From positions 1 through 23,129 of the IMG/VR virus record IMGVR_UViG_3300034374_000195: DNA of 23,129 nt. One strand, written 5' to 3'. Below, one piece after another: positions 645 through 19,126 of this stretch. A program made the position numbers and the translations under genes. The stretch is from a virus. Within the stretch, counting starts at the first letter, position 1, and each line of letters opens with the position of its first letter. The notes under the pieces were generated by a model. The model saw only the letters and a program-made list of their open reading frames with translations. It did not search any database and was not told where the DNA came from.

Positions 645-2417
645 ATGCGATTAGTATTCGACCTTGAAAGCAATGGACTACTGGACGAGCTGGATCGTAT
701 CCACTGCCTCTGCCTAAAAGATATAGACACCGAACAGACTTATAGTTTTGCACCTTCTGAGGTGGAAACTGGTGTCAAGATGCTGATGGAAGCTGACCTT
801 ATTGTAGGCCACAACGTCATCAGCTTTGATATACCAGCAATCAAGAAGGTGTATCCGTGGTTTCGAATCCGAAAATCACAGGTTAGAGACACTCTAGTTA
901 TGTCCCTGTTACTCTACCCTGATCTCAGTGACCGAGATTATCGTTTAGTAGCCACTGATGAGAGCTTTCCAAAAAAGTTGATTGGTAAGCACCGTCTAGA
1001 GGCATGGGGGCATAGGCTCAAGTGTTTCAAAGGTGACTATGATGGCGGTTGGTCAGAATGGTCTCAGGTTATGCAGGATTACTGCGAACAGGATGTGGAG
1101 GTCACCGACAGGCTGTGGAAGCTTATCGAGTCTAAAGATGTATCTCCTGTCGCTACCGAACTTGAACATCAGGTCAAGTGGGTTATTGCAGAGCAGGAGC
1201 GTTGTGGTTTTCCTTTCGACGAGGACGCAGCGTTACATCTCAAGAAGACGTTGGATAAACGTCGTGCAGAACTCGAGGCAGAACTACAGGACACATTCCC
1301 TCCGTGGGAAGAAGAGCTGGGTCTCTTTACACCCAAGGTAAACAATAAGTCCCGTGGTTACGTCAAAGGCGTACCCATCATGAAGAAGAAGACTGTGGTG
1401 TTCAATCCTGGTTCTAGGATGCACATCGAGTCTAGGCTCAAGGCTATCCACGGATGGAAGCCCAAGGAGTTCACTGAAGACGGACGAGCAAAGGTAGATG
1501 AACGTGTATTGTCTAGCTTACCTTATCCTGAAGCGAAGCTCCTGAGCGAATACCTAATGGTGCAAAAGCGTATCGGTCAAGTGGCTGAGGGTGCTAACGG
1601 CTGGCTCAAGAGAGTTAAGTCCGGACGTATCTACGGTCAGGTCATCACCAATGGTGCTGTCACAGGTCGAGCTACGCATCGGTCACCCAATGTAGCCCAG
1701 ACCCCTGCTGTCTATGTCCCTTATGGCAAAGAGTGTAGGTCATGCTGGACTGCATCCAAACACCGTGTACTCATCGGTGCTGACGTATCTGGCCTCGAGC
1801 TGCGAATGTTGGCAAACGAGATGTGGCGGTTTGACAATGGTGCATATGCAAAGGAGGTAGTGGATGGAGATATTCACACCGCTAACCAGACCGCAGCCGA
1901 ACTGCCAACAAGGAATGATGCAAAGACTTTTATCTATGCGTTTCTCTACGGTGCTGGCGACGCTAAGATTGGCTCTATTATCGGCAAGGGTGCGACGGCT
2001 GGCCGCGAAATCAAGAAGAAGTTCTTCGAGAAAGTCCCAGCGTTAGAGCGTCTGGTAAAACAAGTAAAGGCACAAGCTGGTGATAAAGGTTATCTGCTTG
2101 GTCTCGATGGTAGACAGTTACACATACGGTCTACTCACGCTGCTCTCAACACTTTATTACAGTCGGCTGGTGCGCTGGTCTGTAAGCAGTGGCTTGTGGA
2201 GGTAGACAAAGAACTACGCTCCAGAGGGTGGCAAGACAGATGTCAGCAAGTGGCATGGATACATGATGAATTACAATTCGACTGTGATGCAATGATTGCA
2301 GAAGAATGTGGTCAGCTCATCGTGGACTGCATTGCCAAAGCTGGTCAACACTTCAACGTCCAAGTCCCATTAACTGGTGAATACAACATTGGTGCTAACT
2401 GGGCTGAGACACACTAG
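645..2417 (+). CDS. DNA polymerase, family A, T7 gp5-like
   Basis: Replicative polymerase of 590 residues with N-terminal 3'-5' exonuclease and C-terminal polymerase domains. Exonuclease motifs: D6-L-E8 near the N-terminus, GHNVISFDIPAI, and the MQDYCEQDVEVT motif. Polymerase motif A has D380 (GADVSGLELRMLA), the O helix runs R423-N-D-A-K427 to Y431 and Y435, and motif C is H540-D541-E542. Y431 matches E. coli Pol I position 762, so the enzyme has the Tyr type that accepts dideoxynucleotides. The next residue is Ala432, where the family normally has Gly. The protein is about 110 residues shorter than T7 gp5 (704). Only 33 residues separate F218 from V251, where T7 carries its thioredoxin-binding loop of about 70. 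The start follows AGGAG by six bases. Confidence 0.97.
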   Translation: MRLVFDLESNGLLDELDRIHCLCLKDIDTEQTYSFAPSEVETGVKMLMEADLIVGHNVISFDIPAIKKVYPWFRIRKSQVRDTLVMSLLLYPDLSDRDYRLVATDESFPKKLIGKHRLEAWGHRLKCFKGDYDGGWSEWSQVMQDYCEQDVEVTDRLWKLIESKDVSPVATELEHQVKWVIAEQERCGFPFDEDAALHLKKTLDKRRAELEAELQDTFPPWEEELGLFTPKVNNKSRGYVKGVPIMKKKTVVFNPGSRMHIESRLKAIHGWKPKEFTEDGRAKVDERVLSSLPYPEAKLLSEYLMVQKRIGQVAEGANGWLKRVKSGRIYGQVITNGAVTGRATHRSPNVAQTPAVYVPYGKECRSCWTASKHRVLIGADVSGLELRMLANEMWRFDNGAYAKEVVDGDIHTANQTAAELPTRNDAKTFIYAFLYGAGDAKIGSIIGKGATAGREIKKKFFEKVPALERLVKQVKAQAGDKGYLLGLDGRQLHIRSTHAALNTLLQSAGALVCKQWLVEVDKELRSRGWQDRCQQVAWIHDELQFDCDAMIAEECGQLIVDCIAKAGQHFNVQVPLTGEYNIGANWAETH

Positions 2418-2425
2418 GAGAAGAT

Positions 2426-3163
2426 ATGGCTAAAAATACGCTCCTGATTGATGGAGATATTGTAGCCTTTCAAGCATCTGCTTCTCTGGAACACCCTACA
2501 AAGTACGACGAAGACACTTGGATACTCTGGGCGTCTGAGTCAGACACTAAAGCTAAATTCAATGACATGATGTCTACCCTGCATGAGAAGTCAGGGTGTG
2601 CAGATGTCGTTGTAGCTTTCTCTGATAAGGTGAACTTCCGTAAAGAGCTAGATGCTAATTATAAGGCTAATAGAGCTAAGACCAGAAAGCCTATGCTTCT
2701 GCCTTTGCTCAGAGACTACTGCCAACAGAAATACAGGACACTTATCTACCCTCGGCTAGAGGCTGATGATGTGCTGGGTCTGTGTGGTACATACGAACCT
2801 CTTTTTGAAGAGTGTGTCATCTATAGTATCGACAAGGATTTAATGCAAATTCCAGGTCGGCATCTTATTGATGATGAAATCGTCGAAGTAACGCCTGAAG
2901 AGGCTGACTACTTCTTTCTTAAACAAGTCCTCACTGGCGACCAAGCCGATAACTACCCTGGTTGTAAGGGTATCGGTGAGAAGAGAGCTACTGCTATTCT
3001 TGACGAAGACCCTACATGGGAAGCTGTCGTCAAGACTTACGAAAAAGCAGGGCTGTCAGAAGGGGATGCCGTACACCAAGCGCAACTTGCCCGTATCCTT
3101 AGATATGGTGAGTACGACTTGGAGGCACAAAAGGTAAAACTCTGGAGACCCAATGGAAGATAA
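2426..3163 (+). CDS. 5'-3' exonuclease / flap endonuclease, T7 gp6-like
   Basis: A 245-residue FEN-superfamily nuclease. In T7 the homologue (300 residues) removes RNA primers, degrades host DNA and acts in recombination. Metal-binding acidic motifs are visible in order: LLIDGDIVAF (D9, D11), E112-A-D-D115 (LEADDVLG), D136-K-D138 (SIDKDLMQ) and G171-D-Q-A-D-N176 followed by PGCKGIGEKRA, the helix-turn segment that binds DNA. The C-terminal ARILRYGEYD and KLWRP resemble the end of T7 gp6 closely. The polymerase stop TAG at 2415 is part of the Shine-Dalgarno TAGGAG, five bases before this start, so the two genes are probably coupled. All catalytic residues expected of the family appear intact. 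Confidence 0.94.
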   Translation: MAKNTLLIDGDIVAFQASASLEHPTKYDEDTWILWASESDTKAKFNDMMSTLHEKSGCADVVVAFSDKVNFRKELDANYKANRAKTRKPMLLPLLRDYCQQKYRTLIYPRLEADDVLGLCGTYEPLFEECVIYSIDKDLMQIPGRHLIDDEIVEVTPEEADYFFLKQVLTGDQADNYPGCKGIGEKRATAILDEDPTWEAVVKTYEKAGLSEGDAVHQAQLARILRYGEYDLEAQKVKLWRPNGR

Positions 3164-3392
3164 AGTAAACAGCCCTAGTCATTACACAAACGGCTCAATC
3201 GAAACATGGGACTATATACTCGATGTGCAAGGCGATTTTATAGCTATGCACACTGCCCATGCTCAAATTCTGAAATACACAGGCTCACGGCTTTGGAACA
3301 AGAATAACCCCATTGAAGACGCTGAAAAAGCGCAATGGTATCTGGCAGAGATGATACGTCTGATGAAAAAGACTAAGGGGGTTAATTGGTAA
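3153..3392 (+). CDS. DUF3310 protein (gp1.7-related domain)
   Basis: A 79-residue protein with the DUF3310 pattern: VNSPSHYTNGSIETWDYI at the N-terminus, then ILKYTGSRLWNKN and IEDAEKAQWYLAEMI. It is a stand-alone copy of the domain. The T7 nucleotide kinase gp1.7, which phosphorylates dTMP and dGMP, belongs to the same family, so a role in nucleotide metabolism is plausible; it is not proven for a domain of this size. The start overlaps the exonuclease gene by 11 bases and follows GGAG by five. Its position next to a MazG-like gene and an RNR supports a dNTP-supply role by context. Confidence 0.82.
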   Translation: MEDKVNSPSHYTNGSIETWDYILDVQGDFIAMHTAHAQILKYTGSRLWNKNNPIEDAEKAQWYLAEMIRLMKKTKGVNW

Positions 3393-3826
3393 TGAGAGAT
3401 GTTAGCCGTGAAAATAAAGTAGCCTCGTTTCATAAGGCTATGGAAATGAAACGTCAGGTAAGCTTCAACACCAAGGAGCTTACCGCAAAAGAACTAATCG
3501 ATTTCATTCATATGCGAATGACATTGATACAAGAGGAAGTACTCGAATTAAAAGAGGCATCCGATCATATATGTATGCGGCTAAATAATAATGAGACAGT
3601 CGCTACATCTGAGAAAGCCCACTTACTGAAAGAACTAGCTGATGTGCAGTACGTTGTTTCGGGCTTTGCTGATGCCTTTGACCTTCCTATACAGCCAGCA
3701 TTCAACCGAGTCCATGACAGTAATATGTCCAAACTTGAGGATGGGAAACCAGTGAAGCGTGAGGATGGCAAAGTCCTCAAAGGCAAGAACTATAAACCCC
3801 CATACTTAGAAGACTTGGTAGAATAA
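3392..3826 (+). CDS. MazG-like nucleotide pyrophosphohydrolase
   Basis: An all-alpha NTP pyrophosphohydrolase of 144 residues. The metal-binding signature EExxE ... ExxD is complete: E48-E49-V-L-E52 (LIQEEVLELKEA) and E81-L-A-D84 (LKELADVQYVVSGF). MazG and HisE relatives hydrolyse (d)NTPs or related nucleotides to monophosphates; in phages they are thought to recycle nucleotides or alter host (p)ppGpp signalling, which has been debated. I chose ATG 3392 because it overlaps the preceding stop as TAATG and lies about ten bases after AAGGGGG; an in-frame TTG at 3386 would add two residues. The C-terminal 45 residues are basic and polar (GKPVKREDGKVLKGKNYKPPY), forming an extension beyond the MazG core. 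The stop overlaps the RNR start by one base. Confidence 0.85.
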   Translation: MRDVSRENKVASFHKAMEMKRQVSFNTKELTAKELIDFIHMRMTLIQEEVLELKEASDHICMRLNNNETVATSEKAHLLKELADVQYVVSGFADAFDLPIQPAFNRVHDSNMSKLEDGKPVKREDGKVLKGKNYKPPYLEDLVE

Positions 3827-5508
3827 TGGCATTCAAATCTAATAACAATCCGATGTTCCGATCTAAATTCAGTGAGGACATCTTCAATCACAAATACGCA
3901 CACGACGGTTGTGAGACATGGGCAGACCTAGCTAAGACGCTAGTGAAGGACGTATGTTCCGATCATATGTCTGTGACCGATATGTCGCAACTTCAACAAT
4001 ACATCACAGAACTCAAGTTCATACCTGGTGGTAGATATCTATATTACGCTGGGCGTCCTAACAAGTTCTTCAATAACTGCTATCTATTGAAAGCAGAAGA
4101 GGATACCCGTGAGGACTGGGCTAACCTGTCATGGAAAGCTGAAAGCTGCCTTATGACTGGTGGTGGCATTGGTGTCGATTACAGTGTGTACCGTCCGGCA
4201 GGAGCAACCATCAGTAGGACTGGTGGGCAAGCTTCTGGCTCTGTTACCAAGATGAACATGATCAATGAGATTGGTCGTCGGGTAATGCAGGGCGGTAGCC
4301 GTCGGTCAGCTATCTATGCATCCCTTAATTGGAAGCATGGTGACATTCAGGACTTCCTGAAAGCAAAAGACTGGCAATCAATGCCTGTTGGTAGCACAGG
4401 TAAATCCCTATGGGATATTAAGCAAGAAGACTTCAACTTCCCTGCCCCGTTGGATATGACCAACATCAGTGTAAACTATGACACTGACTGGTTATTGGGC
4501 TATTGGGAAACTGGTGATGTTGGTGACGTATTCAAAGAAAACGTGCGTCAAGCCTTAAAATCAGCAGAGCCAGGTTTCAGTTTCAACTTCTTTGATAAAG
4601 AAAACGAAACTCTCAGGAACGCCTGTACAGAGGTTACTTCAGCCGATGACTCAGATGTATGTAATCTTGGAAGCATCAACTTAGGTCGCGTCGATGATAT
4701 TAAAGAATTTAGAAGTATCGTAGACCTTGCAACCAAGTTTCTGATTTGTGGGACACTGCAAGCTAAACTCCCGTACCGTGCTGTCTATGAGACAAGGGAA
4801 AAGAACCGTCGTCTAGGCTTAGGCTTGATGGGTATGCATGAATGGTTAATCAAGAAAGGTTACAGATATGAAGTTACCCCCGAGCTTCACCAATGGCTAT
4901 CTATATATAAAGGACAGTCTGATAAAACTAGTAGACAATTTGCAGATCATCTATCTGTATCCCGTCCAGTTGCAAACAGGGCGATTGCTCCTACTGGTTC
5001 TATTGGTATTCTTGCTGGGACTTCTACAGGCGTAGAACCTATCTTTGCTGTCGCCTATAAACGTAGATATCTAAAAGGGCAAAATCGCTGGCACTACCAG
5101 TATGTTGTAGACTCGGCTGCTCAGGAGCTGATTGATATGTATGGAGCTGACCCACATAAGATTGAGTCATCTCTAGACTTAGCTGAGGATTACGAGCGTC
5201 GTATGATGTTCCAAGCTGACGTACAAGACTATGTCGATATGTCTATCTCTTCAACAATCAATCTCCCCTCTTGGGGCAGTAAACTAAACAACGAGGATAC
5301 AGTAGATGATTTTGCTAACACTCTGGCATCCTATGCCCACAGGCTCAGAGGCTTCACAGTCTATCCCGATGGTGCGAGAGGAGGCCAACCCTTGGTCTCT
5401 GTCCCGTACAGCGAAGCAGTGGATAAGCTTGGTACTGAGTTTGAAGAAGGTATTGAGACCCACGACATCTGTGACATAAGTGGCACAGGAGGCTCATGTG
5501 GTGTCTAA
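3826..5508 (+). CDS. cobalamin-dependent class II ribonucleotide reductase
   Basis: Reduces ribonucleotides to deoxyribonucleotides using adenosylcobalamin instead of a separate radical-generating subunit; no NrdB-like gene is nearby. It has 560 residues, short for the family (the Lactobacillus monomeric enzyme is 739). Visible features: KFIPGGR and FNNC85YLL in the N-terminal half; the thiyl-radical motif N265-A-C267-T-E269; C279 in SDVCNLGSINLGR; NRRLGLGLMGMHEWL; and AIAPTGSIGILAG at 386-398. C85 and C279 fit the pair that forms the active-site disulfide, with a C267-C279 gap of 12 against 11 in the Lactobacillus enzyme. C549 and C558 at the C-terminus could be the shuttle pair. The start overlaps the previous stop (TAATG) and has only a weak Shine-Dalgarno, so translation may depend on coupling. 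Class II is inferred from motifs and from the missing partner subunit. Confidence 0.93.
   Translation: MAFKSNNNPMFRSKFSEDIFNHKYAHDGCETWADLAKTLVKDVCSDHMSVTDMSQLQQYITELKFIPGGRYLYYAGRPNKFFNNCYLLKAEEDTREDWANLSWKAESCLMTGGGIGVDYSVYRPAGATISRTGGQASGSVTKMNMINEIGRRVMQGGSRRSAIYASLNWKHGDIQDFLKAKDWQSMPVGSTGKSLWDIKQEDFNFPAPLDMTNISVNYDTDWLLGYWETGDVGDVFKENVRQALKSAEPGFSFNFFDKENETLRNACTEVTSADDSDVCNLGSINLGRVDDIKEFRSIVDLATKFLICGTLQAKLPYRAVYETREKNRRLGLGLMGMHEWLIKKGYRYEVTPELHQWLSIYKGQSDKTSRQFADHLSVSRPVANRAIAPTGSIGILAGTSTGVEPIFAVAYKRRYLKGQNRWHYQYVVDSAAQELIDMYGADPHKIESSLDLAEDYERRMMFQADVQDYVDMSISSTINLPSWGSKLNNEDTVDDFANTLASYAHRLRGFTVYPDGARGGQPLVSVPYSEAVDKLGTEFEEGIETHDICDISGTGGSCGV
5487..5492 (+). promoter_or_regulatory. 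ribosome binding site that fixes a GTG start
   Basis: AGGAGG lies inside the last codons of the RNR gene. In-frame GTG codons at 5498 and 5501 lie five and eight bases after it, while the upstream GTG at 5480 lies before it. This favours a GTG start overlapping the RNR stop for the next gene. The ATG at 5496 is out of frame. Confidence 0.65.
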
Positions 5509-5686
5509 GTTACCAGTAGTAGACGAACCTCTGCTCGATTATGTCGAACGGATGTTTCCAGACCGCTGCCCAACACTTGAAGATGATGAAAAGACAGTTT
5601 GGTTCAAAGCTGGGGCTGCTTCGGTAGCCCGTCATCTCAGGGCGGTTCACAATCAACAAAATGAAAATATTCTGGAGAATATGTGA
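5498..5686 (+). CDS. small conserved-type phage protein, function unknown
   Basis: A 62-residue protein with a GTG start at 5498 (or 5501), set by AGGAGG at 5487-5492. Features are the LLDYVERMFPDRCP segment, an acidic LEDDEKTVWFKAG segment and a helical ASVARHLRAVHNQQNENIL end. This looks like a small soluble helical protein with no signal peptide, membrane segment or metal motif. I do not recognise a named family, though short proteins of similar look occur just before the portal region in T7-like marine phages. It overlaps the RNR gene and its stop TGA overlaps the next start, so it is translated in the same chain. No function is claimed. Confidence 0.72.
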   Translation: MVSKLPVVDEPLLDYVERMFPDRCPTLEDDEKTVWFKAGAASVARHLRAVHNQQNENILENM

Positions 5687-5917: not shown

Positions 5918-7495
5918 ATGCACAACGGTAAGACCTGTGCAGGACGGTACGAGCAGCTTGCCGTTGAGCGAGAAATGTTTCTTAACCGAGCTAGAGATTG
6001 CTCTGAGGTAACTATACCAACTTTAGTTCCTCCTAGCGGTCATAGCTCGGCTACAGAATACAGAACTCCTTATCAAGGTATTGGGGCTAGGGGTGTAAAT
6101 AACCTAGCCTCAAAACTTCTGCTCTCCCTCCTGCCCCCCAATTCCCCTTTCTTTCGTCTTCAAGTAGACGACCAGACACTAGTAGAACTTACTGGGCAAG
6201 ATAATGCCCGTGCTAAAGTTGAAGAAGCACTGAACCAGATTGAACGGTCAGTAATGACTGAGATTGAAACATCAGGTCTACGCTCTCCCATCTTTGAGGC
6301 ACTGAAGCACCTTATTGTTGCTGGTAATGTCCTAGTTTATCTCCCTAAGTCTGGTGGCATCCGTGTATTCCGACTAGATAGCTATGTCGTGAAACGTGAT
6401 CCCTACGGTAATGTTCTAGAAATCATTACCAAAGAAGAAATCTCCCCTGCTGTATTAGAAGAAAAAGAACTAGAGCTTTTAGGTAGTGACCTGAATAGCG
6501 ATGTTAAAGAAAGCTACAAAGACAAAGTAGCTCTCTATACCCATTTTTATCTAGATGGTAATAGATGGCGTCTGTACCAAGAACTCAAGGGACAAGTAAT
6601 TCCAGGTTCTGCTGGTAGCTGGCCTCTTGATAAGTCACCTATGTTACCCCTCCGGTGGACTAGGATCGACGGTGAGGACTACGGACGTTCCTATGTTGAA
6701 GAGTACCTCGGAGACCTTATCAGCCTTGAGGGGCTTTCTAAGGCGATTGTAGAGGCATCTGCCGCATCAGCTAAAGTACTATTCATGGTTAACCCTAATG
6801 GTACTACTAGGATGCGTGACATTGCTCAGGCCGAGAACTGCGCTATTGTTGCTGGTAACTCTAATGAGGTGTCTGTACTACAAACTCAGAAGTATGCAGA
6901 CATGAGGGTAGCCTACGATACTGTACGCTCAATCACTGAGCGTCTATCTTATGCCTTCCTAATGAATAGTGCTGTCCAGCGTTCAGGTGAACGTGTGACT
7001 GCCGAAGAAGTACGCTTCATGGCTAAGGAACTAGAAGATGCCCTTGGTGGTGTCTATTCTATTTTATCGCAAGAGTTTCAGCTCCCATTAGTAAACCGTC
7101 TAATGGACAGGATGACAAAGGCCAAGAGATTACCTGAATTACCGAAGGGTATCGTAAGGCCAGCTATTGTTACTGGATTGGAAGCTCTAGGTCGTGGTCA
7201 TGACCTCAACAAATATAATGCATTTTTACAGGCTCTACAGCCCATCGGGGCAGAGGCCGTAGCACAATATATGAATGTTGGGGATTACATCACCCGTATT
7301 GGTACAGCCTTGGGCATTGATATGGATGGTCTGGTCAAGACAGAAGAAGATATCATGGCAGAGCAACAGGCACAGGCCGAAGCTCAACAGCAAATGATGA
7401 TGAATGAAACGATGGGACGTATGGCTGAGAAAGCCACTCCCGAAGCTATGAAAATGGCACAACAAGGATTAAATGATGGCAACGGAAACGGTTAA
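5918..7495 (+). CDS. portal (head-tail connector) protein, T7 gp8-like
   Basis: A 525-residue protein, close to T7 gp8 (about 535). It forms the twelve-subunit ring at one capsid vertex through which DNA is packaged and ejected, and it nucleates procapsid assembly. Family-typical segments include TPYQGIGARGVNNLASKLLL near residues 48-70, LLPPNSPFFRL, HLIVAGNVLVYLP, RLDSYVVKRDPYGNV, DGEDYGRSYVEEYLGDL, RSGERVTAEEVRFMAKELED (cut here) and the Gln/Met-rich acidic C-terminus. The start follows AGGAG by nine bases. The last 23 bases overlap the scaffold gene, a tight arrangement suited to producing portal and scaffold together. Confidence 0.95.
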   Translation: MHNGKTCAGRYEQLAVEREMFLNRARDCSEVTIPTLVPPSGHSSATEYRTPYQGIGARGVNNLASKLLLSLLPPNSPFFRLQVDDQTLVELTGQDNARAKVEEALNQIERSVMTEIETSGLRSPIFEALKHLIVAGNVLVYLPKSGGIRVFRLDSYVVKRDPYGNVLEIITKEEISPAVLEEKELELLGSDLNSDVKESYKDKVALYTHFYLDGNRWRLYQELKGQVIPGSAGSWPLDKSPMLPLRWTRIDGEDYGRSYVEEYLGDLISLEGLSKAIVEASAASAKVLFMVNPNGTTRMRDIAQAENCAIVAGNSNEVSVLQTQKYADMRVAYDTVRSITERLSYAFLMNSAVQRSGERVTAEEVRFMAKELEDALGGVYSILSQEFQLPLVNRLMDRMTKAKRLPELPKGIVRPAIVTGLEALGRGHDLNKYNAFLQALQPIGAEAVAQYMNVGDYITRIGTALGIDMDGLVKTEEDIMAEQQAQAEAQQQMMMNETMGRMAEKATPEAMKMAQQGLNDGNGNG

Positions 7496-8234
7496 TATTG
7501 ACCCCCAAGAAAATAATCCATCATTGGAAGAACAGGCTGCGCTTCAAGACGAGGCGCAGTCACCTTCTTCTGGTGAAGAAAAAATATTAGGTAAATTTGA
7601 TTCATACGAGGAACTAGAAAAAGCCTATGCTGAATTACAGTCAGAATACACAAAATCACGCCAATCAACTGAGAGCGAGAGTGTTTCGGATAGTAATGCA
7701 GAGGCATCTGAAGAGGTCGCTCGTGAAGCTGTGGAACAAGCTGGCTTAGATTTTGAAGCACTCAGTCAAGAGTTTTGGAATAATGACGGACTGGCTGATG
7801 CATCTTATGAACAGCTCGAGAAAGCTGGTATCCCAAGAAATTTAGTAGATAGCTATATTGAGGGACAGCAAGCTTTATTATCCACAACTACAAATCAAGT
7901 TTATGACTCTGTTGGCGGTCAGGATAGCTATGAAGCTATGACTGGTTGGGCTGGCGATAATCTATCCGAAGGACAGATTGATGCCTTTAACAGAGCAGTA
8001 AATAGCGGTGACATGGAAGAAACCATGTTTGCCGTTCAGGGTCTCAGATCAATGTATGAGGCTCAAAGAGGTGTTGAACCAGCACGAAACTTAGCTGGTC
8101 AATCACGCCCATCTGCCGATGCTTACTCGAGCCTAGCTCAAATGAAAGCAGATATGGCAGACCCACGATACAGTTCTGATCCTGCGTTCCGTGATCAAGT
8201 CGCAGCCAAACTGTCTCGCTCAAACATTATGTAA
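7473..8234 (+). CDS. capsid assembly (scaffold) protein, T7 gp9-like
   Basis: A 253-residue, strongly acidic protein between portal and capsid genes, the place and character of T7 gp9 (307 residues). Scaffold fills the procapsid and directs capsid protein assembly, then leaves. Residues 1-75 are acidic and probably disordered, with KFDSYEELEKAYAELQSEY, a segment typical of T7-like scaffolds. The middle (about 85-145) contains AGLDFEALSQEFWNNDGLAD and YEQLEKAGIPRNLVDSYIEG, also family-like. The C-terminal 50 residues (PSADAYSSLAQMKADMADPR, DPAFRDQVAAKL) match the conserved scaffold end that contacts capsid protein. The start may be ATG 7473 or ATG 7476; AAGGA lies five or eight bases upstream. 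Confidence 0.9.
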   Translation: MMATETVNIDPQENNPSLEEQAALQDEAQSPSSGEEKILGKFDSYEELEKAYAELQSEYTKSRQSTESESVSDSNAEASEEVAREAVEQAGLDFEALSQEFWNNDGLADASYEQLEKAGIPRNLVDSYIEGQQALLSTTTNQVYDSVGGQDSYEAMTGWAGDNLSEGQIDAFNRAVNSGDMEETMFAVQGLRSMYEAQRGVEPARNLAGQSRPSADAYSSLAQMKADMADPRYSSDPAFRDQVAAKLSRSNIM

Positions 8235-13555: not shown

Positions 13556-15325
13556 ATGGCACGGACTACAGTTGATTTAACACCTGTGTCTCCCACTGCG
13601 AGGGGAATAGGACGACAGGGGTCAGGTGCAGTACAATATAGAGCTAACCCAAACGCTGGCAGTTCTGCGGAACTTCTGGCAAATAGCTTGAATGTTGTAT
13701 TGGACGCATCTCAACGCAATGACCGAAGAAAGATTGATGAGGCTAACAAGAAGTTTGAGCTAGAGTTTGATGGGTATGTATCTAAGGCACTGCAAGGTGA
13801 CAATACTACAGGCATCGAAGAGCTAGACACACTGTATCCAGACATGAGTATGACAAGGAAGCTCATGATCCTGAAGGCGGCTGGTAAGGCCACTATGGAA
13901 CGGGACGATGACTTTCAGAGCTTAGTGGCATCTATTGGTGCGCCTAGCACTGACGAGTTTGGTAACTCTACAGGCTTTGCAAATACCCTAGACGGTATCA
14001 ATTCCGGCTATGCATCGGCAGAGCAATACATCCGTGATAAGTACGGTGAATCAAATGGTGCATATGTATCAGGGATGCTCGGCTACCTAGATGGTCAGCG
14101 TTCAGCTCAGGTACAGCAGTATGTCGCTGGAAAACGAGCAGACGAGCTACAGGCCACTGCTAATGACTTTTCAACTACAGATAAAGCTTTAGCGGCATCT
14201 GGTGACTGGAAAACTCTACAGCAACGGGACGATATCTGGCGTTCTGCCGGAGGAAACGATTTTATTCAAGGTAAGACCCGTAACGCTGAAATTTTGAATG
14301 CAGCCCGTGACCAAGCTTTATTAAATAGAGACATAGGTGTCTTAAAGGATGCTCCAGAAGTTTACAAAGGCATCATGAAAGATAAGCCCCAGCTATGGGA
14401 CACTTATATGTCTAATGTACAGCGTGAGATTGACAGACTGAATGCTGTCGATGCTGCGGCTACGCTCAAGAAAAAAGAAGATGAACAAAAGCTTCGTAAG
14501 GACACCCTACTAGATAAGATGATCAAAGGTGACCCACCCCTTACTGAATCTGAAGTCCGTGAAGTAGAAGGCTACTCAGACCTCAGCTCTGCTCGTGAGC
14601 GACTACGGGCTAACACTGGTGTCGATAAGACAGTCTCTAAGAACAACCTAGTAACACTACAAGGTCAGTTAAAAGAAGCTGATACTGTAGAGGAACTAGA
14701 GGAACTAGGGCTTACTGAGGCAGCATTAGGTAACCCAGAAGCAATCATCAGGTGGGCATCTACACAGCCTGATATTCATCCTGACGATGTCCCTGCTCTT
14801 ATCGAGGCTACACAGTCAGCTTACTATATTACTGATGTTAAAAACTCTAATGAACATAAGCGGTTCGAAACCCAAGTAGAAGGTGCGCTTGCTGAAATTA
14901 GAAACGTAGCTTTACTGGACGGTCAATATGGTATGGCTGGTGGGCTATTAAACCAAGATAGCACATTCTATGCACGAGGTAAGACATTAGCAAAAGACGA
15001 GTTTTCTGAGCTTGTAGAGATTTACAGGGAAGAAAACGGAAATGAAAAGCTTACTAAAAGACAGCTAAAGGAAATCCGTGAGCTTGTTGTTGCAAAAGTC
15101 GAAAAATATGTCGAGAGCTTTAGAAACCAGACTACAGCATCTGCTGCTTACCAACTGAAAGAGCAAACAGAAAAACTACGAAACACTAGTAATGAGTATA
15201 GAGACCCTGAATCAGGGGTTATCTACCCTGTCATTAGCCCTGCTGAAGCGGCTGAAGTCAAGGCTATCAATCCTGATGTAGAGTTCAAGGAAATCACTCC
15301 AAATAGACTTATTCAAACGAGGTAA
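13556..15325 (+). CDS. internal virion protein, T7 gp15-like
   Basis: A 589-residue protein in the gene 15 position, shorter than T7 gp15 (747). gp15 forms the periplasmic tube of the ejectosome with gp16. The N-terminus (VSPTARGIGRQGSGAVQYRA) is a Gly/Arg-rich arm, followed by mainly helical charged sequence: LNVVLDASQRNDRRKIDEAN, LMILKAAGKATMERDDDFQS, YIRDKYGESNGAYVSGMLGY near residue 155-180, and long helices rich in Lys/Glu around 300-400 and 480-560. No enzymatic motif was found. AAGGA overlaps the preceding stop and precedes the ATG. The next gene starts four bases after the stop. Assignment relies mainly on synteny, length and N-terminal character. Confidence 0.85.
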   Translation: MARTTVDLTPVSPTARGIGRQGSGAVQYRANPNAGSSAELLANSLNVVLDASQRNDRRKIDEANKKFELEFDGYVSKALQGDNTTGIEELDTLYPDMSMTRKLMILKAAGKATMERDDDFQSLVASIGAPSTDEFGNSTGFANTLDGINSGYASAEQYIRDKYGESNGAYVSGMLGYLDGQRSAQVQQYVAGKRADELQATANDFSTTDKALAASGDWKTLQQRDDIWRSAGGNDFIQGKTRNAEILNAARDQALLNRDIGVLKDAPEVYKGIMKDKPQLWDTYMSNVQREIDRLNAVDAAATLKKKEDEQKLRKDTLLDKMIKGDPPLTESEVREVEGYSDLSSARERLRANTGVDKTVSKNNLVTLQGQLKEADTVEELEELGLTEAALGNPEAIIRWASTQPDIHPDDVPALIEATQSAYYITDVKNSNEHKRFETQVEGALAEIRNVALLDGQYGMAGGLLNQDSTFYARGKTLAKDEFSELVEIYREENGNEKLTKRQLKEIRELVVAKVEKYVESFRNQTTASAAYQLKEQTEKLRNTSNEYRDPESGVIYPVISPAEAAEVKAINPDVEFKEITPNRLIQTR

Positions 15326-15328
15326 AAC

Positions 15329-18300
15329 ATGGGCGTCGCTGATCTACCCACTTGGAATCCGTCTAGTGATGAGCTGGAGGAGATTCGTAAGAAGCAAGAA
15401 AAGATAAAGGCTGACCGAGAAGCTGCACAAAGGTTAAACGCTCCTCAGTCTACCACTTCTCCAACAACACCGAACACAACAGCATCTTCTACAACCCCAG
15501 CCCCAACCAATGTCTCTCAAGCGATTGCTGGAGGACAAGAAGCATTCACTGCACGGTTTGAGGCTGGCGAAGAAGATACCACCGAGGATACCCTTGTAGA
15601 AGACGATGACTTCTTGATGGCAGCTCGTAACGTATATCGGTTCAATCACAATGGTCGAGACTTTGATGGGTCAGATCAAGAGCTGGCAGACTACGCCTTA
15701 GATACTATGGGCTGGTTTAACTACAACCTACCTAAGATGACTGTAGATGCCTCTATTATCTCTCGAGCAGACGATAATACAAGAGCATCCTTCCTATACC
15801 TAATGGAAGCCTATGATGATAAAAATATCTCATGGGACGGGACTTGGCGTTTTGTGAAAGGCGTGGCTACCGATCCTACAACTTACGCTGGACTAGCGTC
15901 TTTTGGTATTGGTACTGGAGCAAGCTTTGCTGGTAAACAGCTTGGTAAGGAAGGTCTCAAAGCTCTACTGAAGGGCGGTATGCGTAACACTGTTATTGCC
16001 GCCACTGAGGGGGCTATCTATGGTGCTGTTGATGATATCAACCGTCAGGTCATTGAGACCTCTGTAACAGGTGAGGATATCGACTTAGGACGTACACTGA
16101 AGTCTTCTGCCCTTAGCGCAGCGACTGCTGGTACGATTGGTCTAGCCGCTACCCCTGCTATAAATCAGGCACAAAAGCTTCTAGGAGCTAAACCTAAGAA
16201 ACGTAAGACTTCTAAAGGTGCAGCTAAGACAGCAGACGACGCTACACCAGCCGACGGGGCAACTAAAGATATCAACGAGGCTGGCGCAAAGCTAGTAACT
16301 CGGGTTGAGCAGGAAGGTGCATCAGAGCCTAAGCTAGGTGTCACTTCAGCTATCCTAAAAATCCGTGAGGCTGTAGAAAAGACAACTAAGGATGGATTTG
16401 TTGCTGTAGACCCTGAGACTGGCGTACAGAAGCGTAAGTTAATCAAAGACGCTACAGATATGCTAACAAGTGTCTTAGGTAAGGTAGTCCATAATACTGA
16501 TGGTAGTCTGGATACAAACTCACTGACTCAACAGATACTGGGTATGCAACTTACTCAGGCTGAGTTTAATGCTCTAGGTATTTCTGTACAGCGTACCATG
16601 TCAGACCTTGTAGAAGAGCTGGATGATGTTATACGTCGCCAAGAGGGTGACCTGTCAGAGGACGCTGCGGTTGAACTAGGTGCAGCCCGAGAGGAGCTTG
16701 AAGACCTCTTCCGTAAGCTTAATATACTCGATGAGGGCTTTCGTTCTACTAACGCCCGATCACAAGGTGCAAGACGGGAAAACATCTATCGTGGTGAACT
16801 GCTAAACCTGTTACCTGAAGATATCAAAGTAAGGGATAATGTCACACAGGAAGTAGCTGACCGTGAATGGCTGGCTATGGTTGATAAGCAACGTGAACTG
16901 TTGTCAAAGGATACAGACATCAAACGTCTGAACGGTGAAATTGAACGGGCTTTGAAAAAGAACCGTATCGAGAAAGCCGCTAAGTTGTCAGCAGAACGTC
17001 GTGAACTGTTGAAGCAGAAGATGGACGCACAAAACCCAGGTATTGGGTACAAGGCAAAAGCATCATTCCGTCGCACTGTCGAAGGTGTGAATGAGTTTGT
17101 TATTGGCACTGTGTTTACGACTTCTACGATTGTGGTTAACACACTTCCCTCTCTTGTTAAGACTGCATATAAGCCATTCTTGAATTTCGTAGTTGAGGGC
17201 GATTACGCCAGTTCAGGTTTTCGTAAGATGACTGGTACATACTCGGCTATGTGGAGGATGCGTGAGGGTGCGGCAAAAGCTGCCATTGCTGCTTATAAAT
17301 ATGAGCGTGGGATGCTAACAGGCGACTACAGTAGGTTTATGGAAAACCACAATGTTATCCCTCAGCGTTTCAAAAAGTATGTACCAGTAGGGTCAGTCAT
17401 TCGCCTTTTTCCTAATATTCTCAATATGACCGATGAGTTTTTCCAACAGATTAACTATCGTGGATATGTAGAAGGCCAAGCGATTGCTAACGCTATTCTA
17501 CATAATAAAAGCCTAAAACGTCCTAAGAAAGGAAAAGCCTTAGAAGATTACATCCAAGAGGAAGTAGATAAGGTTATCCTAAACGCCTACGAAAATCTTG
17601 ATGAAGTTCAGATCAAGCAAAACCTTTTAGAACAGGCCGAAGCTCGGGGGATGAACCCTAAGCAAGCTAAGAAGTTTGTAGCTGATGAGTTCAAGAAGGA
17701 TAAGGACAGACAAGCTAAGGGTAAGGATAGCATCTTCAGGAACGCTAAGAACAAGGAAGGACGGTCATACACAGAAGACCTCCTGTTCAAGCGTCAGTTC
17801 TCTGGAGACGGTACGGCATCACAGACAGCTCAGAAGTATGAGCAGTTTGTCCGTGATAACCCGTGGATGAAGATTATAGGTCAGCTCTTCTTCCGTACAC
17901 CAGTTCGTGTATTTGAAGAAGGTATCAGGATGACACCTGGTATTCAGTTGATTGCTCCTAAGTATATCCAAGACTTGCGTGGTGCAAACGGTACAGCTCG
18001 TCAGGTACGGGCGCAAGGTGAAGCCTTGTTGTCATATGGTATCGCTGGGTACGTCATGATGCAGTATGCTCAGGGTAGCATTACTGGTGCTGGTACAGGT
18101 GACTATAAGCGTCGTAAGATGCAGGAAGACACTGACAGGCAACAGCCATACACCATCAAGTTTGACGATGGAACTACACTTAGCTTCAAAAACTACGACC
18201 CGTTCTCGACACCCATTAAGATTATGGTAAATGCCTTTGAGAGATATGAAGAGGTAGAGTATCGTCGTCGTCAAGGCGAGTATGTAGAAGATGAGCTGGG

Positions 18301-19126
18301 GCTGATCCGAGACCGTCTGTACGTCGGTGTAGGCTCACTGTTCAATGCAATCAAAGATGCAAGCCTTATGGAAGGTTTAGATCAAGCCAGTGGCTTAATA
18401 CAGTCATTTGGTAAAGAAGATGCATGGTATCGGGACGTTCTCAAGTTTATGGGGCAGAAGACCCAGCTTGCATTCCCTAACATGATTTACAAGACCAAGA
18501 ATGCATTCTTTGATGACACTCCTACTCTGAAGAACCCCGTAGGCTTCCTACAGCACCTCGAGGCTCGTATGGACTTAGGTTTTACCCCTGTGTCTAACCA
18601 ATACGACATCTTAGGTAACGCAAGGCCAATCGAAGCTCCTACCAACAGTCTTCACGGTATATTCATTACAGATGAAGAAGACCGTCGTAAGGGTAAGTCG
18701 GAAAGAGACCTCTTTGTTCTGCGGAAGATGGAGCTGATTGCTATTGCAACAGATTCAGCCTTCGAGATACCAGCTCGTGTTCCTAATTTCTTTGGTAACC
18801 GAGACCTGAGAACAGAAGCATACCCTGGCGAAGATAAGACCCTGTATGACCGCTATGTCGAAATCTACAGGGAAGCTAACGGTGGGATTACAAACATCCT
18901 ATACCCAATCTTGTCTAACGGTGACCAGATGTATGGGACTGCAAGTCAGGACGGTGCAATCAGTCAGGTTGTCCGTAGTGTAATCGCAAAGCAACGACAG
19001 GTCGCTGCAATCCTTCTTCTAGAAGAACTCGGCAAGATGCCTGAATTTACAAACAGGAAGGTACGTCAGGGTGAGGCTAAAGCTGGTCTCCGTGATGACA
19101 CCATATTCCCTAATGTTAGAGACTAA
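15329..19126 (+). CDS. internal virion protein, T7 gp16-like, without visible transglycosylase domain
   Basis: A 1265-residue core protein (T7 gp16: 1318), the largest ejectosome part, which crosses the inner membrane during infection. Residues 1-70 hold a charged helix and a Ser/Thr/Pro/Asn-rich linker. About 90-195 is a compact module (VYRFNHNGRDFDGSDQELAD, ALDTMGWFNYNLPKMTVDAS, FVKGVATDPTTYAGLASFGI) of a kind I recall from large marine podovirus core proteins. Hydrophobic stretches occur at about 170-240, 587-610 (FVIGTVFTTSTIVVN) and 899-922 (LLSYGIAGYVMMQYAQGS). Coiled-coil-like charged helices fill 430-580. The N-terminal lytic transglycosylase (SLT) domain of T7 gp16, with its catalytic Glu and GLMQ-type motif, is not visible. 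The start follows GAGG by six bases. Confidence 0.9.
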   Translation: MGVADLPTWNPSSDELEEIRKKQEKIKADREAAQRLNAPQSTTSPTTPNTTASSTTPAPTNVSQAIAGGQEAFTARFEAGEEDTTEDTLVEDDDFLMAARNVYRFNHNGRDFDGSDQELADYALDTMGWFNYNLPKMTVDASIISRADDNTRASFLYLMEAYDDKNISWDGTWRFVKGVATDPTTYAGLASFGIGTGASFAGKQLGKEGLKALLKGGMRNTVIAATEGAIYGAVDDINRQVIETSVTGEDIDLGRTLKSSALSAATAGTIGLAATPAINQAQKLLGAKPKKRKTSKGAAKTADDATPADGATKDINEAGAKLVTRVEQEGASEPKLGVTSAILKIREAVEKTTKDGFVAVDPETGVQKRKLIKDATDMLTSVLGKVVHNTDGSLDTNSLTQQILGMQLTQAEFNALGISVQRTMSDLVEELDDVIRRQEGDLSEDAAVELGAAREELEDLFRKLNILDEGFRSTNARSQGARRENIYRGELLNLLPEDIKVRDNVTQEVADREWLAMVDKQRELLSKDTDIKRLNGEIERALKKNRIEKAAKLSAERRELLKQKMDAQNPGIGYKAKASFRRTVEGVNEFVIGTVFTTSTIVVNTLPSLVKTAYKPFLNFVVEGDYASSGFRKMTGTYSAMWRMREGAAKAAIAAYKYERGMLTGDYSRFMENHNVIPQRFKKYVPVGSVIRLFPNILNMTDEFFQQINYRGYVEGQAIANAILHNKSLKRPKKGKALEDYIQEEVDKVILNAYENLDEVQIKQNLLEQAEARGMNPKQAKKFVADEFKKDKDRQAKGKDSIFRNAKNKEGRSYTEDLLFKRQFSGDGTASQTAQKYEQFVRDNPWMKIIGQLFFRTPVRVFEEGIRMTPGIQLIAPKYIQDLRGANGTARQVRAQGEALLSYGIAGYVMMQYAQGSITGAGTGDYKRRKMQEDTDRQQPYTIKFDDGTTLSFKNYDPFSTPIKIMVNAFERYEEVEYRRRQGEYVEDELGLIRDRLYVGVGSLFNAIKDASLMEGLDQASGLIQSFGKEDAWYRDVLKFMGQKTQLAFPNMIYKTKNAFFDDTPTLKNPVGFLQHLEARMDLGFTPVSNQYDILGNARPIEAPTNSLHGIFITDEEDRRKGKSERDLFVLRKMELIAIATDSAFEIPARVPNFFGNRDLRTEAYPGEDKTLYDRYVEIYREANGGITNILYPILSNGDQMYGTASQDGAISQVVRSVIAKQRQVAAILLLEELGKMPEFTNRKVRQGEAKAGLRDDTIFPNVRD

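Follow-up and report, generated by a model that had tools for sequence, protein, structure and literature searches.

Published compilations report a characteristic finger loop for each class of ribonucleotide reductase (RNR): NPCxE in 3,175 of 3,347 class II sequences, a predominant but not universal motif, NLCxE in 1,914 of 2,022 class I sequences and NVCLE in 30 of 35 class O sequences (PMC9669993). Within class II, the monomeric enzyme is reported to have arisen from a dimeric one through an insertion (PMC4390871), the inserted segment mimicking the dimer partner (PMC4390871, PMC9669993), and the phosphate level of the substrate is reported to be set by an apical loop, P-A/S/G-G-R for triphosphates and P-N-S-P for diphosphates (PMC8365446). 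In phages, B12-dependent class II RNRs have been reported for CRP-3 and for nine of ten Autographiviridae roseophages (PMC6918029, PMC11092137), and the monomeric RTPR has been followed in virioplankton (PMC10547690). Marine surveys split viral class II enzymes into 'monomeric' and 'dimeric', reading the substrate (NTP or NDP) from this split, and report unexpectedly many 'monomeric' clades (PMC12918982, a preprint).

The DNA analysed here, hereafter the window, comprises all 23,129 bases of an IMG/VR record, which itself represents a fragment of a genome (Table 1). Its RNR ORF encodes a barrel recognized by Pfam (PF02867, E 1.1e-49), a Pfam scan of the ORF found no ATP-cone, and the ORF is a conserved gene for which chance is excluded. 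N265, C267, E269, C85, C279, C549 and C558 all lie where the initial annotation had placed them on the plus strand, and the T7-like replication setting it described is borne out by the polymerase, exonuclease, portal, scaffold, capsid and tail tube genes that flank the RNR. The stop of the MazG-like gene overlaps the RNR start, and the region 3' of the portal encodes T7-like scaffold, capsid, tail tubes, internal virion proteins and fibre. Two long ORFs at the position of the T7 internal virion proteins (13556-15325, 589 aa, and 15329-19126, 1,265 aa) have no PHROG match at E 0.001. An Rfam scan of the window gave no match.

Table 1. Genes of the window and key sites of the RNR chain (positions in the 23,129-base window).
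Feature	Position	Strand	Remarks
Helicase end and winged-helix protein	5' of polymerase gene		
T7-like family A DNA polymerase	645-2417	+	Pfam and PHROG matches
5'-3' exonuclease	2426-3163	+	Pfam and PHROG matches
DUF3310 protein	3153-3392	+	Pfam and PHROG matches
MazG/PRA-PH-like nucleotide pyrophosphohydrolase	3386-3826	+	PF01503, phrog_671
Class II-type RNR, single chain, 560 aa	3826-5508	+	ATG start, complete ORF
Apical phosphate-site loop P67-G-G-R70, triphosphate type	4024-4035	+	GGR in 239/239 loci; meaning as reported in PMC8365446
C85, putative first active-site redox cysteine	4078-4080	+	82/82 and 68/68
Finger loop N265-A-C267-T-E269, putative thiyl-radical cysteine	4618-4632	+	Clade-specific NA motif
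C279, putative second active-site redox cysteine	4660-4662	+	14 residues after N265, 13 in other class II rows
T511-V-Y-P-D-G516, class II-like strand	5356-5373	+	Site of the YY pair of classes I and O
C549-X8-C558, C-terminal cysteine pair	5470-5499	+	Disordered tail
Small ORF, 68 aa, directly after RNR	5480-5686	+	Too small for small subunit
Small proline-rich ORF, 76 aa	5683-5913	+	Too small for small subunit
T7-like portal (head-tail connector)	5918-7495	+	phrog_449

The clade to which this RNR belongs is represented here by 239 full-length loci encoding 181 distinct proteins, 8 of 247 loci having been dropped because they had no complete, high-scoring ORF. C85, N265, C267, E269 and C279 are identical in all 82 aligned sequences, as are C549 and C558 in the 81 sequences that extend into the tail. 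A wider sampling of 68 sequences, whose other members are 45-83% identical to the window RNR, gives the same picture: C85, N265, A266, C267, E269, C279 and C558 are each found in 68/68 and C549 in 67/68, with residue 268 being T in 63, C in 4 and G in 1. An odd residue in the C85 column of one locus (L094) is due to its broken N-terminus. Residue 512, within T-V-Y-P-D-G and near the active-site barrel strand, is an additional cysteine in 35 of the 68 clade members.

Neither the window RNR nor any other member of this clade carries the usual class II finger loop NPCxE. The first two residues are NA in 239/239 loci, and the full loop reads NACTE in 232, NACCE in 6 and NACGE in 1. At the same site of a 68-row reference set we found NP in 33/33 class II rows (27 dimer-type and 6 monomer-type, labels that reflect NCBIfam matches, record annotation and insertion length and not experiment), NL in 14/14 class I rows and NV in 3/3 class O rows, in line with the published frequencies (PMC9669993). 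The step from the finger-loop asparagine to the second redox cysteine also sets the clade apart, being 14 residues in 18/18 clade rows; all 33 class II rows and the 3 class O rows have 13, and the 14 class I rows have 17 or 25. At the level of sequence, the departure of NACTE from NPCxE is the mark of a fully supported, mostly viral clade, a point that the initial annotation overlooked.

A pair of tyrosines (YY) is the radical carrier in classes I and O. This pair is present in 14/14 class I and 3/3 class O rows and in 0/51 clade and class II rows, and the only one of the 181 distinct clade proteins with YY within its last 90 residues has it at another site. The window RNR has neither the YY pair nor an NL or NV finger loop.

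Phylogenetic analysis places the clade within class II. In a first tree (68 rows, 500 columns, IQ-TREE LG+C20; the fragments or truncated ORFs L187, L219 and L232 and 12 near-copies removed), the clade forms one group (100/99) that joins six monomeric class II rows (99/96), and forcing it together with class I or class O is 52 log units (AU p 0.00094) or 10 log units (AU p 0.0187) worse, respectively. A second tree included 14 monomers and left out the insertion columns, and none of its end branches was flagged as long; its set was reduced to 74 rows by removing 5 rows that were long-branched or broken and L414, which was too short, from among 12 added loci, and to 60 by dropping 14 more. This tree separates classes I and O from class II (81/100), then PAGR-type dimers (80/85), then the clade plus the monomers (100/99), with the clade and the monomers each forming a clade of their own (100/99), and it rejects placement of the clade outside class II (AU p 0.00029) or with the PAGR dimers (AU p 0.00074). 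A third tree, with 11 of 68 rows dropped and a single monomer kept, agrees (100/99). By tree and motifs, over samplings of 57 to 68 rows, the window RNR is a catalytic chain of class II type. The class II type given in the initial annotation is upheld, both in the phylogeny it had proposed as a check, which rejects class I and any position outside class II, and by the missing tyrosine pair; class I or class O identity is rejected on the same two grounds. Because the inner branches are long, a sister relation between the clade and the monomeric class II enzymes can be called likely but falls short of proof.

An alternative to weigh here is that the chain resembles class O or class I and has been mistaken for class II, with a small subunit too divergent to see or derived from the host, as with P-SSP7; class O and P-SSP7 provide the precedents (PMC9531940, PMC6370689). 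The window RNR resembles the P-SSP7 class O genes in being compact, in having no ATP-cone and in lying between exonuclease and portal, the highest structural Z scores (below) come from class Id alpha chains, and the P-SSP7 RNR was itself first annotated as class II (PMC6370689). Searches with PF00268 gave no match in the window record, which is a fragment, in CRP-3 or in another 16 records, four of them complete isolates, but the same search is also blank in P-SSP7, whose small subunit is known and divergent. The argument from a missing partner gene is therefore weaker than it looks, and we dropped the PF00268 result as an argument on its own, relying instead on residue motifs, gene order and a second search. 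With the P-SSP7 small subunit as tblastn query, all 56 records found are named Synechococcus, Prochlorococcus, cyanophage, Tiamatvirus, uncultured or Microcystis, so the clade isolates are not among them. A 37,988-base relative (L323; RNR 95% identical to that of the window, 79% DNA identity over 14 kb) has a replication region with integrase, T7-like RNA polymerase, SSB, endonuclease, primase-helicase, polymerase, exonuclease, DUF3310, MazG-like and RNR genes, in which no unassigned ORF is of small-subunit size, and in the window the position of the P-SSP7 small subunit holds only the 68 and 76 aa ORFs. Together with the absent YY pair and both AU tests of the first tree, these observations make a misread class I or class O chain very unlikely. 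The single-chain enzyme proposed in the initial annotation is supported by the class II placement and the lack of the tyrosine pair, and no small-subunit gene was found in the record, fragment though it is. In L323, a tyrosine integrase (1640-2755) lies beside the T7-like RNA polymerase (2958-5561), and this T7-like phage may integrate.

Within class II, the features that separate dimeric from monomeric enzymes are mixed in this clade. The C85-R123 and R123-R160 distances are 37-38 and 37 residues in 18/18 clade rows, compared with 37-40 and 37 in dimers, 83-142 and 60-61 in the 6 monomers of one set and 83-143 and 61-69 in the 15 monomers of another, all of which have the insertion. Loop 1 of the clade is without the dimer-mimicking insertion, as in the dimeric subgroup and not as in the monomeric RTPR, and since its distances equal those of dimers the clade looks dimer-type. 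On the other hand, the C279-T390 stretch is 110-111 residues, short as in monomers (102-131) and not as in dimers (131-191), and the apical loop is of the triphosphate type (a G-R pair, or S-M-R) that is a monomeric RTPR feature (PMC8365446), with the invariant GGR preceded by P in 230 loci and A in 9.

These mixed features bear on the label carried by the homologous CRP-3 gene (MK613345.1, 11124-12809), whose record calls it a ribonucleoside-triphosphate reductase, as with the CRP-1 and CRP-4 enzymes, although it falls in another clade, one that lacks the insertion of those enzymes. Given GGR in every locus, the label is plausible as to substrate. The membership in the monomeric RTPR family that it implies does not appear plausible from the profile scores: against TIGR02505, with a cut-off of 340 bits, CRP-3 scores 90.6 and the window RNR 88.9, CRP-1 and CRP-4 also falling under the cut-off at 302 bits. 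An ordinary monomeric RTPR that still works as a monomer after partial loss of its insertion would account for the sister position, the triphosphate-type loop, the short C279-T390 stretch and the CRP-3 annotation. Neither insertion can be traced, however, the dimer-equal distances recur in 18/18 clade rows, and scores of 89-91 of the required 340 bits for the RTPR profile stand against 203-222 for the class II profile NrdJ_Z, so that we regard this reading as unlikely.

Comparison of the predicted fold did not tell the classes apart. A single-chain AlphaFold2 model built from 68 sequences of the clade itself is of high confidence (pLDDT 87.6, pTM 0.89) and is disordered from about residue 547. 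Foldseek returned T. maritima NrdJ as first match, while VIA-align gave Z scores of 36.7 and 36.3 for class Id alpha chains (rmsd 2.6-2.7, 441-444 aligned residues), 34.6 for T. maritima NrdJ and 32.7 for the monomer 1l1l; the class O structure 7urg is not among the 50 matches listed by VIA-align, which excludes nothing. With Z scores this close across classes, the fold alone leaves the class undecided.

Counting against the class II reading are the NA-C finger loop with its extra residue, the NrdJ_Z score of the window RNR (222 bits, far below the cut-off of 400) and the Z score of 36.7 for class Id alpha against 34.6 for T. maritima NrdJ, along with the blank PF00268 control in P-SSP7, the incomplete window and the long inner branches of the trees. 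The first of these could also mean that radical initiation is non-standard, with a new cofactor or an activating protein in place of the usual AdoCbl. The exchange of NP-C-x-E for NA-C-x-E and the added residue are fixed across the clade, and finger-loop sequence has been tied to catalytic mechanism (PMC9669993). Nevertheless, the catalytic residues are kept, the neighbours of the chain in the tree are AdoCbl enzymes, and neither a candidate activase nor a metal subunit could be recognized in the surrounding genes, so a new mode of initiation seems highly improbable.

Overall, the RNR is real, conserved and of class II type, a protein with an ordinary role from an unusual clade. We think it probable that it is an AdoCbl-dependent class II enzyme that supplies the phage with dNTPs without a partner subunit, predicted to reduce NTPs, to act as a dimer and to be fed by a host redoxin. 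Its clade most likely represents a sister group of the monomeric class II enzymes in which the insertion is absent. In this class II enzyme, homolysis of AdoCbl would generate a thiyl radical at C267, and an NTP bound under the P-G-G-R loop would be reduced with electrons from C85/C279. The C549/C558 pair of the tail would then re-reduce C85/C279 and be reduced in turn by host thioredoxin or glutaredoxin. Two chains would pair through the usual helices, with a dNTP at the dimer interface setting the choice of substrate. Cobalamin dependence, NTP use and the dimer state are predictions.

As to the electron donor, the initial annotation had taken the wide C549-X8-C558 spacing as a hint of a different one. 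The cysteine pair itself is real and conserved, but its spacing varies within the clade (X8 in 180 of 239 loci, X7 in 29, X4 in 27 and X6 in 2, with a single cysteine in 1), and the spacing is therefore rejected as a sign of a new donor. Tail spacing is reported to be highly variable in class II, CxxC being the class I norm (PMC9669993). One viral class II enzyme of the monomeric type was active with thioredoxin from the host (PMC6459318), which makes a host redoxin the default guess for this clade as well. No glutaredoxin gene was seen in the window or in ten scanned proteins of L323, a scan that covered part of the small ORFs.

The clade is mainly viral. Among the best 60 of 1,630 matching records in a collection of 50,697 phage records, the only close relatives are CRP-3 (81% identical) and CRP-212 (80%), followed by seven Tunturiibacter and Streptomyces phage records at 48-49%, with the remaining 51 at 28% or less. 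In IMG/VR, at least 595 stretches encode relatives, of 599 candidates among the matches listed, and the best 80 of these were kept. Conversely, a scan with two short patterns of one genome each from 84,980 bacterial and archaeal species detected at least 16 loci, a lower bound. It is these counts that make the clade mainly viral. Six of the 16 bacterial and archaeal genomes were examined, and five of them hold a further class II gene over the NrdJ_Z cut-off. The exception is Thiospirillum jenense (L098, 5992-7653), whose clade member, on a 130 kb contig, has the NACGE loop. In a metagenome-assembled contig (L103, about 7164-8029), the RNR gene is split after PTGSIGILAG by about 860 bases that include a 215-aa HNH-type endonuclease-like ORF, possibly a mobile intron.

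A literature search over text passages found no account of a clade with an NA-C finger loop, nor of a sister clade that lacks the insertion; the whole words 'NACTE' and 'ribonucleotide reductase' together gave no match, nor did finger loop plus proline. The clade may be present without a name among the 172 class II sequences of PMC9669993 that depart from NPCxE or the 'monomeric' clades of PMC12918982.

The gene appears, by inference from sequence comparisons, to be exchanged independently of the phage backbone. The RNRs of the window and CRP-3 are 81% identical, whereas their polymerases are 20% identical and their MazG proteins have no BLAST similarity. A portal like that of the window (86-99%) lies nearby in 13 of the 80 loci, and in 21 there is a polymerase like that of CRP-3 (38-96%). 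By portal and polymerase, the phages closest to the window are the Autographiviridae roseophages CRP-804, CRP-403 and CRP-118; in CRP-804 and CRP-118 the stretch from exonuclease to portal contains no RNR, and CRP-804 instead encodes near its right end a 638-aa NPCSE enzyme with 73% identity to the monomeric type of CRP-1 and 22% to the window RNR. In P-SSP7 and S-CBP4, class O alpha and beta genes fill the stretch before the portal.

If the clade is indeed an insertion-free sister of the monomers, the step from dimer to monomer would be open to direct study, with one protein from each side. The survey split into 'monomeric' and 'dimeric' may misjudge this clade, as an NTP-type loop here goes with a dimer-type architecture. 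For phage biology, the clade would represent a one-gene reductase that moves between unrelated backbones, found where T7-like cyanophages have the two-gene class O enzyme.

Compared with known systems, the window RNR shares with the dimeric class II enzyme T. maritima NrdJ (PDB 1xje, 3o0n, 3o0o) the common barrel, the cysteine trio, an insertion-free loop-1 length and the lack of a YY pair. It differs in its NA finger loop and PGGR loop, where T. maritima NrdJ has NP and the NDP-type PNSP (PMC8365446 for PNSP), and in a much shorter chain with a short tail that has no zinc finger. The monomeric class II RTPRs (L. leichmannii 1l1l and the phage MA5, CRP-1 and CRP-4 types) are its nearest sisters in all three trees and share the triphosphate-type loop and a short tail with a cysteine pair, but they have the dimer-mimicking insertion, the NP finger loop and the 13-residue step, all three of which are absent from the clade. 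The class O RNRs of P-SSP7 and S-CBP4 are likewise compact, without an ATP-cone and placed just before the portal, and unlike the window RNR they have NVCLE, the YY pair and an adjacent small subunit. CRP-3 gp17 and the CRP-212 RNR, from HMO-2011-type roseophages, belong to the same clade as the window RNR, at 80-81% identity and with all of its motifs, on a backbone that differs from that of the window.
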